Part shown: in pieces, positions 9,270 to 44,979 of the stretch
Layout: every line of letters starts with the position of its first letter
Numbering within the stretch: position 1 is the first letter of the stretch
IMG/VR virus record: IMGVR_UViG_3300044998_001357
Span: 1 to 64,000 of that record
Origin: a virus
Length of the DNA stretch: 64,000 nt
Strand: one strand, 5' to 3'
The notes under the pieces: model-generated
The model's database searches: none
Told to the model about the DNA's origin: nothing
What the model saw: only the letters and a program-made list of their open reading frames with translations
Translations under genes and position numbers: made by a program

Positions 9270-10949
9270 ATGTCGACGGCAAGCGGAATTCGTGCAGGTG
9301 CTGCCTATGTAGAGTTAGGCGTCAAGGACAGCCGCCTCATCAAAGGTCTTGATGCGGCTGCCAAGAACCTGAGTGCGTTCGGCGCAAGCATTACTACGAT
9401 TGGTGCTCAAATTGCCGCGCTCGGTGCAGCTGCTGCCGTCCCTCTGTTTGCTCTTACCCAACAGGCGGGCAGCCTGGCCGATTCCTACGACAAGATGTCC
9501 GCGCGCACCGGGATCTCGACCGAAGCCCTGTCGCAGCTTGGATTTGCGGCCGAGCAATGTGGCAGCAATTTGGCCGAGCTAGAGCTTGGCCTCAAGTCAA
9601 TGCAGCGAGCGATTGCTTTGGGTGCAGCAGGCCCGGGCCTAGCCGGTCTGTCAGGTGACCAGCAGTTTGCGATCCTCGCCCAGAGGATTGCGAGCATCGA
9701 AGATCCCGCTCGGCGCACCGCTGAGGCCATAAAGATTTTCGGTCGGTCCGGTAACCGATTGGTGCCGCTGCTGTCCGAGGGAGCCGAGGGGGTGGCTAGG
9801 CTGCGCGCAGAGGCCGCCGCGCTCGGCCTGACCATGAGCCGCGAAGCGGCAACGGCAGGTGCTAAATATGCAGACGCTTGGAATCGTATGCAGCGCGTGC
9901 TGCGGTCGACCTGGATGGCGATCGGTGGCGCATTGGTTCCGGCGCTCACCGATTTGCTGGACAGAATTCTACCTGTCCAACTGGCAGTTATCGACTGGGT
10001 GCGCGCTAATGGGTCACTGGTGAGTTCTGTGGCGATGGTATCTGCGGGCCTGCTAACAGCGGGCGGTGCTTTGATCGCGCTTGGTATTTCTGTCTCATCG
10101 CTAGGCGTTTTGGTATCAACATTTGCTAGTGGGCTTGGATTGCTTGGGACATTGCTAGGCGTGGTGATTAGTCCGGTAGGGCTGCTGGTGTCTGCTTTGG
10201 TGGGGCTTGGAGCGGCCTGGGCGACAATGACCGATAGCGGCAAAACGGCTTTGGCCACGCTGTCCGGCCGTGGCAAAGAGGCTCTCGGCACGCTGGCGGG
10301 CGGATTCCAGCTACTGTATGCGCAGTTTATGGAGGCCTGGGGTGGGATACTGCAGGCCATCCGCGCAGGTAGACTAGAGCTTGCTTTCGAAATCGCCGCA
10401 GCGGCGATCGTGAAAGTGTGGTATGAAGCCATGCTTGCACTACGCAAAGCATGGAATTCAACCATTGATAGCTTTGTTAAAACCATACAAGCCAACCCAT
10501 GGATTCTCCCGCTCATTGGAGCGGCGGCGGGCGGTTCAGTGGGTGCAGTCCTTGGCCCTAAGGGCATTGTGGTCGGCGGTGCGATCGGCGCAGGAGCCGG
10601 TATCGGCGCGACGCTGCGAGCGGAGGAGCTTGGTGACCAGCTGCGAGTGTACACGCTCGCGGCGGAGATGCGCCTCGCAGACGCTCAGCGCAGGCTGGAG
10701 GAGCTACTCGCCCAGGCGCGGACATTGCCGCCACGAGCGACGCCTTCCGGCCCGCCCGGCAAATACCCCACGGCCGCCGAACTGCAGGCGACTCTGCAGG
10801 GCGCACGCGGCTCTTTCAATACACCTTTTGCCGCTCAACAACTTGGCCTAAGCGATCAAGTTAAAAAGCAAGAGGATTTGCTAAATGACTTATTAGGCGA
10901 AGTCAAGCAATTCAAAGAGCTAGTTCGAGGAGGGTTGTCGTTTCAATGA
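9270..10949 (+). CDS. Tail tape measure protein
   Basis: 559 residues. Sets tail length and is ejected with the DNA. It has an N-terminal helical coat region rich in Ala (AAYVELGVKDSRLIKGLDAA), the tape-measure stretch TGISTEALSQLGFAAEQ and IEDPARRTAEAIKIFG, several long hydrophobic segments between residues 250 and 320 and near 410-450, and a C-terminal coiled coil. The length predicts a short tail. Confidence 0.9.
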   Translation: MSTASGIRAGAAYVELGVKDSRLIKGLDAAAKNLSAFGASITTIGAQIAALGAAAAVPLFALTQQAGSLADSYDKMSARTGISTEALSQLGFAAEQCGSNLAELELGLKSMQRAIALGAAGPGLAGLSGDQQFAILAQRIASIEDPARRTAEAIKIFGRSGNRLVPLLSEGAEGVARLRAEAAALGLTMSREAATAGAKYADAWNRMQRVLRSTWMAIGGALVPALTDLLDRILPVQLAVIDWVRANGSLVSSVAMVSAGLLTAGGALIALGISVSSLGVLVSTFASGLGLLGTLLGVVISPVGLLVSALVGLGAAWATMTDSGKTALATLSGRGKEALGTLAGGFQLLYAQFMEAWGGILQAIRAGRLELAFEIAAAAIVKVWYEAMLALRKAWNSTIDSFVKTIQANPWILPLIGAAAGGSVGAVLGPKGIVVGGAIGAGAGIGATLRAEELGDQLRVYTLAAEMRLADAQRRLEELLAQARTLPPRATPSGPPGKYPTAAELQATLQGARGSFNTPFAAQQLGLSDQVKKQEDLLNDLLGEVKQFKELVRGGLSFQ

Positions 10950-40780: not shown

Positions 40781-41000
40781 TTTAACCCTTCTTGTTCTTT
40801 GGCTTTTCTGGGTTACTAGTAATGGTCGTGAACATGGTCTTAGGCCTGTTTACGACCTTTAGCTGAGAACGCTCATCATTCGTGCCCACCTATGCCCCGG
40901 CGATGAGTAAAATCGCCATTGGCGCATGTAAGATTGTTTTGGTATTGATTCGGTGATGACTGGTCTTTGTGGATGTTTACTTGGCCTCCTAGGAGAAAAA

Positions 41001-42134
41001 ATGAAGTCGACACATCGCTCGGAAGTCGTACCAGTGGTTCTGCAGAAGCACCCCAACGCGGATAGCCTATCCATTGTTAAGGTATGGGGCTACACCTGCA
41101 TTGTTCGAACGGTCGACTGGCAGGGAAGGTCGCGTGGCGTTTATATTGTTCCCGATAGCTGCGTGGATGTACGCCGACCGGAGTTCTGTTTCCTGGCGGA
41201 TAAGGCCAAAGAAGATGGGACGTACCGTGTTCGGGTCACCCGGCTGCGCGGCGAACTGAGCTATGGTCTGCTCATTCCCGCCCCGGACTGGGCCGAACTG
41301 GGCCAGGACTTGGCTCCGTATCTGGGTGTGACCCGCTACGAGCCACCGGAACACTCACGTGGCTTCATCGCTTCGGGCGAGGAGGAGGAGGGGCCTGACC
41401 TCTGCACCGGTCCGGAAAAGTACGACGTGGAGGCGTTCGAGCGTTACCACCACCTGCTGGAGGTGAATGAGCCGGTGGTGGTTCTTGAAAAGCTTGACGG
41501 CACCAACATGCGGGCGGTTTACTGGGAGGGTCGTTACTGGGTCAAGACCCGTAATCGTTGGGTCAAGCGCGTGCCGACCTACTCACACATCACCCTAGAT
41601 TCCCTTATCGGTCGTGGCGTGGCGGAAGAGCAGGCCCGGGAAATTGTTGAGCGGATTGCCAATCGCTGCCCTAAACTGAACAGCCACTGGGAGGCTCTCG
41701 AAAATAGTCCGGCCACAATGAAGTTTCTCAAAGAGAATCCGGGGATGACCCTCTACGGCGAGGTGTTTGGCGCGACGAACCGAATTCGCTACTGGAAGCA
41801 TGGCAAGAATCGTTTGGCGGTTTTTGACATCTATGACCAGGGCGTTTTCCTGAATGCCGGCAACACCTGGCGTCTGGGCGTAGCCAACGACCTGGAGATG
41901 GTTCCTGCGTTCACCCCTTTCGCAGGAGGGCGTACCTCGTTTGCTTTTCATGGCACCCCCTACAAGTTCGACACCATCAAGCGGCTGGCCACGGGAACCA
42001 CTCTGGTGGAGGGTGCCGGCTGTGCAGTGATTCGTGAGGGGGTCGTGGTTCGTCCACTCCAGGAGCGTTACGACCCCAAGATTGGCCGGGTGATTCTCAA
42101 ATGTGTCAGTCCTGATTTTTTGGTAAAGGATTAA
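41001..42134 (+). CDS. RNA ligase, DRB0094 (Rnl5) type
   Basis: 377 residues after AGGAG. N-terminal OB-like domain (residues 5-110, with QKHPNADSLSIVKV, CIVRTVDW and LRGELSYGLLI), then the nucleotidyltransferase core with catalytic lysine in EKLDGTN (about 164), YGEVFG near 255 and a closing VVRPLQER near 345. The N-terminal OB fold plus ligase core is the Deinococcus DraRnl arrangement, which seals nicks with a 3'-OH RNA end. In phages such ligases repair host-cleaved tRNA or RNA. Confidence 0.85.
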   Translation: MKSTHRSEVVPVVLQKHPNADSLSIVKVWGYTCIVRTVDWQGRSRGVYIVPDSCVDVRRPEFCFLADKAKEDGTYRVRVTRLRGELSYGLLIPAPDWAELGQDLAPYLGVTRYEPPEHSRGFIASGEEEEGPDLCTGPEKYDVEAFERYHHLLEVNEPVVVLEKLDGTNMRAVYWEGRYWVKTRNRWVKRVPTYSHITLDSLIGRGVAEEQAREIVERIANRCPKLNSHWEALENSPATMKFLKENPGMTLYGEVFGATNRIRYWKHGKNRLAVFDIYDQGVFLNAGNTWRLGVANDLEMVPAFTPFAGGRTSFAFHGTPYKFDTIKRLATGTTLVEGAGCAVIREGVVVRPLQERYDPKIGRVILKCVSPDFLVKD

Positions 42135-43316: not shown

Positions 43317-43681
43317 GAACTGGATGGATTCTGTTGCTCCTGGTTGGGTTGGTATGGGGTGCTCCGTTGCCCTCGGAGCGACCCCGACCTTCTCTTACTG
43401 CCCACCGCTGGATGATGCGGCACGGTAGCAGTCTTTTTTGGGCGCGTTTCTATCCTTGTGGGCAGTATTACGCGGGGCCTGGAGATAAGTCGGCTATTTT
43501 GTGGCACGGCAACTGGGTTCTGCAGGGCGATATCTTGACCGTTGAAGAATTTTCCATCTGGGATACCGCTAAGGAGAACCGGGTTGTTTACTGGTCGGTG
43601 TGCCTGGATAAGTCTAGCTGGACCGGTGAACGCATTACCTGTTCAGGATTTGTTGATGAGTTTTCTCTTGAAGGAGACTGA
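43313..43681 (+). CDS. Small secreted protein
   Basis: 122 residues with a clear signal peptide (RTGWILLLLVGLVWGAP) and a Trp/Tyr/Cys-rich body, probably a small beta protein (CGQYYAGPGDKSAILWHG). No family recognised. It is coupled to the preceding ORF and only one base from the release-factor homologue. Confidence 0.6.
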   Translation: MRTGWILLLLVGLVWGAPLPSERPRPSLTAHRWMMRHGSSLFWARFYPCGQYYAGPGDKSAILWHGNWVLQGDILTVEEFSIWDTAKENRVVYWSVCLDKSSWTGERITCSGFVDEFSLEGD

Positions 43682-43682
43682 G

Positions 43683-44448
43683 ATGACCGCGAAAAATCGA
43701 ATCCCTCTTTCCCCCTCGGTTCAAACGCGACAAGACTGGCTTTGAGGACGCAACGGAAATTATTCTGGAAGTCCTCCACGGCGAGGGCGGGCAGGATGCC
43801 AAGCTTTTTGTAGAGCAGCTGGCCGACCTCTACCTCCGCTATGCCGCACGTCATTCGATTCGTGTTTTCGTTCTGGACAAATCGCCGGGTCATTGCGTTT
43901 TTCGGTTGCAGGGCAAGGGGGTGGGCCACCTTTTTGCTCGCGAGGCCGGAAAGCACTGCATTCAACGTATCCCCTCCAACGACCGTTCGGGTCGTCCGCA
44001 AACCTCGTTTGTGAGCGTGGCGGTTCTCCCCTTACCTCCCGAAAACACGGTGACTCCTCTGCCCGAAAACGAACTGCAGATTACCGTCCAGACCGGAAAG
44101 CAAAGGGCCGGTGGCCAAAACGTCAACAAGGTGGCCAGTGCCGTGCGGATGAAACATCTACCCACGGGTTTGTCGGTCTTTATCCATGGTCGAGACCAGG
44201 GCCAGAACAAACAAGAGGCCCGACGCATTCTGACCGCCAAGGTCAATCAGCTACGAAACGCCCAACGACAGGAAGATTACTCCCGACTCAAAAATGGGCA
44301 ACTGGGCGAGCGCGGCCGGGGCGGGAAAATCCGGACCTATAACTTTATCGATGGTCGGGTAACCGACCACCGGAGCGGTCAGACCACCAATAATCTGAAG
44401 GGTCTTATGAAGGGCAACCTCGAGCTTCTTGCAAATCTGTCTGATTAA
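43683..44448 (+). CDS. Release-factor homologue, probable +1 frameshift
   Basis: Frame from ATG 43683 (after GGAG) runs 20 codons to CTT-TGA (43740-43745). The +1 frame then continues without any ATG, GTG or TTG before 43903 and encodes domain 2/3 of RF-1/RF-2: EIILEVLHGEGGQDAKLFVE, a codon-recognition region at RIPSNDRSG, and the peptidyl-hydrolase GGQ loop (RAGGQNVNKVASAVR). Total about 254 residues; domain 1 is missing, as in short RF-like proteins. The arrangement equals the autoregulatory site of cellular prfB. A one-base sequence error near 43690-43740 is the alternative. Confidence 0.8.
43740..43746 (+). promoter_or_regulatory. Candidate +1 recoding site CTT-TGA
   Basis: CTT TGA G: Leu codon, then a UGA stop, then continuation in the +1 frame with GAG GAC GCA. 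Same heptamer core as bacterial prfB (CTT TGA C). The internal Shine-Dalgarno-like element found upstream in prfB is not obvious here (bases before are GACAAGACTGG). Confidence 0.65.
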
Positions 44449-44610: not shown

Positions 44611-44979
44611 ATGTCAACGCTAGAACATGTGCAGATTTGCCTCAGTCAGGCACTTGGAATGCCTATCGACGAAATCTGGGAAGATACTCTGCTGCATGAA
44701 CTGGGGGCCGATAGCCTGGATTTCCTCGATATCACCTTTCGTCTAGAACGTCGTCTGGGAGTCTCCCTGCAAACCACGGCACTGTTCCCGGAGTGGCTTC
44801 TGGAGACCAATTCGGAATACGTGCATCGGGGCAACTTAACCAGCAAGGGTGTCCAGCGACTGACAAAGGAGCATCCCCAAGTGCCGGCCAGGGAAGGGAT
44901 GCCGGCAGGTGATGTGTTAACCGTCGGCTTCCTGGTCCAGGTTCTGGACCGCCTGCTGGTTCCATCGGGAGCAAAATAA
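44611..44979 (+). CDS. Acyl carrier protein-like
   Basis: 122 residues after GGAGGTGG. Residues 1-60 match an acyl carrier protein: LSQALGMPIDEI, then the phosphopantetheine site LGADSLDFLDI (Ser in DSL) and LERRLGV. The C-terminal 60 residues are an unusual extension. Cellular ACP carries acyl chains; a phage copy could divert lipid or lipid-A synthesis or bind a host enzyme. Its 3' end overlaps a minus-strand gene by 63 bases. Confidence 0.75.
   Translation: MSTLEHVQICLSQALGMPIDEIWEDTLLHELGADSLDFLDITFRLERRLGVSLQTTALFPEWLLETNSEYVHRGNLTSKGVQRLTKEHPQVPAREGMPAGDVLTVGFLVQVLDRLLVPSGAK

Follow-up and report, generated by a model that had tools for sequence, protein, structure and literature searches.

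The window analysed here, a stretch of 64,000 nt that forms part of a 148,783-base IMG/VR virus record, contains a release factor gene that is interrupted shortly after its start codon. This locus raises the question of whether the gene is damaged, or whether its early stop codon acts as a gate by which synthesis of the release factor depends on translation termination itself.

Organization and product of the interrupted gene

Translation from position 43683 bore out the preliminary description, according to which the ATG frame ends after 20 codons at CTT-TGA (CTT 43740-43742 immediately precedes TGA 43743-43745 in this frame) and the release factor domains are encoded only in the +1 frame without an early start codon. 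Matches to the PCRF (E 5e-20) and RF-1 (E 1e-21) domains were both located in the +1 frame, which is open from GAG 43744 to TAA 44446-44448. The first ATG, GTG or TTG codon of this frame is TTG 43906, well within the PCRF domain. The following features were assigned:

43671..43676, + strand: Shine-Dalgarno sequence AAGGAG of the leader ORF, 6 nt before ATG 43683 (from the sequence)
43683..43745, + strand: leader ORF of 20 codons, MTAKNRIPLSPSVQTRQDWL, ending at TGA 43743-43745 (from translation)
43740..43746, + strand: putative +1 frameshift site CTT-TGA-G (same place and type in relatives)
43744..44448, + strand: +1-frame body of the release factor, 234 codons followed by TAA (Pfam, NCBIfam, PDB sequence and fold matches)
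43747..44019, + strand: PCRF domain, C-terminal part only (profile positions 98-194 of 194), domain 1 absent (domain profile match)
43972..43980, + strand: codon-recognition tripeptide PSN in place of the PxT of RF1, T186 to N (alignment to RF1)
44059..44373, + strand: RF-1 (catalytic) domain (domain profile match)
44110..44118, + strand: GGQ catalytic motif (sequence and alignment to RF1)

At the putative site, slippage from CTT to TTT would make GAG 43744-43746 the next codon, and the predicted junction peptide is QDWL-EDATEIILEVLHGEGGQDAK.

The window protein was aligned to residues 103-333 of Thermus thermophilus RF1; since the match starts only at residue 103, domain 1 is considered to be missing. 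Among the NCBIfam models, RF1 ranked highest (197/185 bits), followed by RF2 (143 bits) and PrfH (50 bits), all of them below the curated cut-offs (TIGR00019 for RF1, 185.4 bits vs. 423; TIGR00020 for prfB/RF2, 142.6 bits vs. 370; TIGR03072 for PrfH, 50.2 bits vs. 166.65). In the alignment, the SPF recognition motif of RF2 was absent from the window protein, which features PSN, and from its relatives, which mostly feature PPT; SPF was present in cellular RF2 rows only. Moreover, the window protein has Q in place of the conserved His of RF1. The frameshifted protein was modelled with AlphaFold2 (mean pLDDT 86.8, leader disordered), and RF1 on the 70S ribosome ranked first among the PDB matches of the model (TM 0.81). 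Based on these matches, the product is classified as an RF1-like release factor that lacks domain 1 and possesses GGQ. Accordingly, the initial proposal of a prfB-like +1 site in a shortened protein with GGQ and without domain 1 stands, whereas the protein itself resembles RF1 and not RF2.

A phosphopantetheine-binding (acyl carrier protein-like) gene is located immediately downstream of the release factor gene (44611-44979; PF00550, E 2e-9). An RNA ligase gene with a PHA02142 OB-fold (40953-42134; PF09414, PF21189), possibly functioning in RNA or tRNA repair, lies 1.6 kb upstream. This PF09414 ligase is not RtcB, and no RtcB ligase was found among the selected window neighbours scanned.

Relatives and their shift sites

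Scanning IMG/VR with the single protein yielded no matches, and alignments were needed to find relatives. These were collected by means of tblastn and protein-pattern scans, the patterns excluding the shift site. One additional scan applied a DNA pattern containing CTTTGA; the relatives obtained from it were recovered again by the protein-only scans. Relatives were identified in huge-phage genomes (LR756511 and others), many IMG/VR contigs, Obscuribacterales genomes and one contig binned with a Parcubacteria MAG, which looks like a phage according to our reading of its ORFs. A Lak phage (L146) encodes an RF2-type release factor of full length, which includes domain 1 and has no shift site; it was not regarded as a member. 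INPHARED hits resembling bacterial chromosomes, at least one in number, were left out: CAKLQH020000004 (L148), deposited as a phage, matched within a prfA-hemK region flanked by metabolic genes and looks like a bacterial chromosome.

Relatives with 40-60% identity on unrelated contigs exhibited the same kind of break. All close relatives are interrupted, their ATG frame stopping at CTT-stop and the release factor continuing in the +1 frame; as the preliminary description had suggested looking for, the same CTT-TGA recurs at the homologous place on independent contigs at approximately 50% identity. Reading paths were determined by a search starting from every ATG, GTG and TTG, in which a +1 shift or readthrough was permitted at any stop and after any preceding codon, and this unbiased search yielded CTT-stop +1 sites. 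When the 61 family members were finally classified, a CTT-stop site was located ahead of the domain in 28 and within the PCRF domain, at codon 28-50, in 12, while one member shifts at GTT-TGA, 19 contain in-frame stops (18 UGA, one UAG) that would need readthrough, and one (L084) is uninterrupted; six loci (L070, L075, L076, L079, L092, L162), for which the automatic search slightly favoured a readthrough path from another start, were assigned to the shift class by hand because their CTT path begins at a well-placed upstream ATG. Uninterrupted homologues, which the preliminary description had named as evidence against a programmed site, therefore amount to one of 61 members, compared with 41 that have a shift site.

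Sites within the PCRF domain (L090/L194, L147, L184, L191, L195, L196, L199-L202, L204, L205) are situated near the loop after the long helix. Further members (L002-L005, L183, L186, L188-L190, L192, L193, L197, L198, L203, L206, L208) contain in-frame UGA codons, one or two per gene and at several different positions, often as GGY-UGA or ASI-UGA, which represent candidate readthrough gates. In-frame stops cluster early in the genes: of 21 such stops, 20 fall within codons 1-55 of about 225 (p 1e-11). The release factor gene of L074 has two in-frame UGA codons, one near either end. In the phylogenetic tree, all 61 short factors cluster together, separate from canonical RF1 and RF2 (support 100). 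The distribution of gate classes requires at least 11 changes on this tree, and gate type has therefore switched repeatedly.

Signals at the shift sites were evaluated for a curated set of 50 CTT-stop +1 sites in 42 loci. The gating stop is UGA in 31, UAG in 16 and UAA in three sites, and the base after the stop (+4) is C in 34, G in 10, T in three and A in three. Pairing to the anti-Shine-Dalgarno sequence peaks for 7-mers ending 1-3 nt before CTT (mean -4.3 to -4.7 kcal/mol) and is about 0 well away from the site; values of -4 kcal/mol or better were calculated for 29 of the 50 sites vs. 6.9% of random 7-mers. As far as these signals indicate, the family sites have prfB geometry. Furthermore, 41 of 42 shift-type relatives have CTT directly ahead of the stop, compared with 1.0% of the long ORFs (n = 576) and 2.2% of the short ATG ORFs (n = 11,291) of the same phages (p ~1e-66 against the 2.2% background; ~1e-20 for 12/12 lineages alone).

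The window copy is among the weaker sites of the family. Its pairing amounts to -0.2 kcal/mol, in agreement with the early remark that an internal Shine-Dalgarno-like booster is not obvious, and its stop is followed by G instead of the usual C. Since the internal Shine-Dalgarno element is absent and G follows the stop, frameshift efficiency at this site may be low. Ten of the 50 curated sites are likewise TGA-G, and about a quarter of the sites are without a Shine-Dalgarno element.

Tandem sites were detected in eight genes. The pairs of sites observed in close relatives are:

LR756511: CTT-TAA-C, then CTT-TGA-C
IMGVR_3300014202: CTT-TAG-C, then CTT-TGA-C
L063: CTT-TAG-C, then CTT-TGA-C
L040/L069: CTT-TGA-C twice
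L092: CTT-TAG-C twice, each after GGGGG + 3 nt
L162: CTT-TAG-C twice
L161: CTT-TGA twice
L070: CTT-TAA-T, then CTT-TAG-C

Between loci L001 and L008, the middle frame separating the two sites is kept over 45 nt without an indel; UAA and UAG are exchanged at site 1 and UGA is retained at site 2. Likewise, L071 and L072 encode proteins that are 99% identical and have retained the site although the leader was rewritten, with differing gates (UAA, UAG). L069, which has two UGA gates, is nearest to the window on the tree. The window leader features an in-frame CTT-TCC at codons 9-10 (43707-43712), near the position of the first CTT-TGA gate of L069, which may be a lost or never-gained gate. The phage with UAA and UAG gates (L070) also encodes an ARAGORN-predicted tRNA with a CUA anticodon (tRNA-Pyl type; 9594-9671, - strand).

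In Obscuribacterales (L064-L067, L115), the short factor with a CTT-TAG-C gate occurs alongside canonical RF1, and these genomes also contain RF2 (three of four) and an ArfB-size factor. The L066 gene resides on a 759-kb contig, and its neighbours look bacterial from our reading of the ORF sequences. The short factor of Obscuribacterales is an accessory cellular (chromosomal) gene. Canonical RF1 of the remaining 189 Obscuribacter-class genomes showed no such interruption.

Alternative explanations and proposed mechanism

A one-base assembly or sequencing error, considered in the preliminary description, or a decaying pseudogene would be compatible with a single contig, a C5 run in the leader and the missing internal Shine-Dalgarno element of the window copy. 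However, the break recurs at the homologous place in other contigs of independent origin and in huge-phage genomes that were curated, all at about 50% identity, the 234 codons of the body contain no second lesion, and dN/dS of the relatives' +1 frame is far below 1 (0.04-0.17 in five pairs, four other pairs being dS-saturated), showing that this frame is under purifying selection; an error is excluded in practice. Extremely unlikely, too, is translation starting inside the domain, for example at the in-frame TTG 43906, to give a shorter rescue-type factor preceded by an unrelated ORF: such a start would remove 54 conserved residues from the N-terminus, among them the GEGG motif, which is conserved in the family and under selection, and no equivalent start is kept in relatives. 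A changed genetic code, in which the stops are sense codons, was suggested by the 19 relatives with in-frame stops and by the fact that some huge phages do recode stops. It is considered very unlikely, since the frame itself changes at the shift sites, which recoding cannot explain. Moreover, in 50-kb stretches around four readthrough-type genes UGA is the normal terminator, and the helicase and terminase genes of these phages contain no internal stops; these genomes are therefore not recoded where tested, and no evidence for UGA recoding was obtained there.

Based on gene organization and conservation, an RF1-like phage release factor lacking domain 1, produced on demand and gated by termination itself, is proposed with a probability of roughly 85%. 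Ribosomes would initiate at ATG 43683 and pause at CTT-TGA (codon 20-21). Quick arrival of a class-1 release factor would release the 20-residue leader, whereas slow termination at UGA would allow the P-site tRNA-Leu to slip by +1 from CUU to UUU, by which the ribosome would enter the release factor frame. The short factor would hence be made when termination in the infected cell lags: as the gene is broken by one or two early stops, full-length protein is expected only when these are read slowly. The slippage step is modelled on prfB and Mimivirus, and frameshifting itself, its efficiency, its response to release factor scarcity and the stops read by the protein are inferred.

As to what the phage senses, host release factor levels or its own product, the interpretation depends on the recognition loop. 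Factors with the RF1-type PxT motif are predicted to read UAA and UAG, not UGA. This loop is RF1-like in nearly all family members, whichever stop gates the gene, and the family alignment revealed no clear link between gating stop and recognition motif; Asn replaces the Thr of PxT in 7 of 42 UGA-only genes vs. 1 of 15 UAG/UAA-only genes. Because the PxT loop is near-universal whatever the gating stop, UGA gates probably sense host RF2, and a UGA gate would not constitute closed-loop autoregulation unless specificity had changed. The product itself may additionally close UAG/UAA gates, and tandem UAG/UAA and UGA gates would need both activities to be low. Closed-loop autoregulation, with the phage factor terminating at its own gate instead of the gate sensing host factors, is possible but not favoured: all three stops serve as gates with the same recognition motif, UAG/UAA gates suit an RF1-type factor and prfB provides a model, yet most gates are UGA, which PxT factors are not expected to read, and the motif does not follow the gating stop. 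A further, rather doubtful variant is that the short factor reads all three stops, every gate then being a feedback loop and tandem UAG/UAA and UGA sites an AND gate, opened only if neither host factor achieves termination. Whether gates act as host-factor sensors or feedback loops is directly testable, given the small size of the genes and the possibility of transferring the sites to reporters in E. coli.

Comparison with known systems

Many large phages thus carry a short release factor gene broken by one or two early stops, and such genes will be annotated as truncated or overlooked. A published list of huge-phage release factors does not contain the word frameshift (PMC7162821), and no report of recoding in phage release factor genes was found in the literature searched; subscription papers and preprints were mostly outside this search, and an earlier description is possible. 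In bacteria, such gating was previously known for only one of the two release factors. Atkins et al. (2016) referred to an in-frame UGA in RF2 genes and a UAG counterpart for RF1 as unknown in bacteria (PMC5009743); the family described here includes candidate cases of either kind, found in phages and in an accessory chromosomal gene of Obscuribacterales.

The bacterial prfB (RF2) gene shares with the window gene the CTT slippery codon, a stop in the A site, the early position after a short leader and a class-1 release factor as product. A Shine-Dalgarno-like element located about 3 nt upstream and a C following the stop are further features that it has in common with many relatives; neither is present in the window copy. 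According to Prince et al. (2025), the prfB gate occurs in 64% of 12,753 genomes and is nearly always UGA, UAG being used in none of 8,164 prfB gates (PMC12421855). In contrast, the phage-borne family encodes an RF1-like protein without domain 1, is gated by UGA, UAG or UAA, and includes tandem sites, in-domain sites and some in-frame stops. RF1 (prfA) has the same domain order in its C-terminal two-thirds, GGQ, the PxT-type motif seen in most relatives, and the best sequence and fold matches, but it possesses domain 1, and the window protein has PSN for PxT and Q for the conserved His; Prince et al. (2025) found no programmed frameshift in prfA, and none is known for this gene (PMC12421855, PMC5009743). 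PrfH is likewise a release factor homologue without domain 1, from which the window protein differs by its score of 50 bits vs. a cut-off of 167.

The eRF1 genes of Mimivirus and Megavirus (R726, mg280) also belong to large viruses with a release factor of their own that needs recoding, by a +1 shift at CUU-UAG-C or CUU-UAA-C and readthrough, and frameshifting at the Mimivirus CUU-UAG-C was demonstrated in E. coli (PMC3521657). They differ in encoding an unrelated protein of the eukaryotic/archaeal eRF1 family in amoeba viruses and in combining shift and readthrough in one gene. Including Mimivirus, these cases suggest repeated evolution of release factors that are gated by the very stops they serve. 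Judged by comparative analysis, the window gene carries a real, conserved recoding gate in a new release factor branch, with regulation of the prfB type in a protein that is RF1-like and phage-borne.
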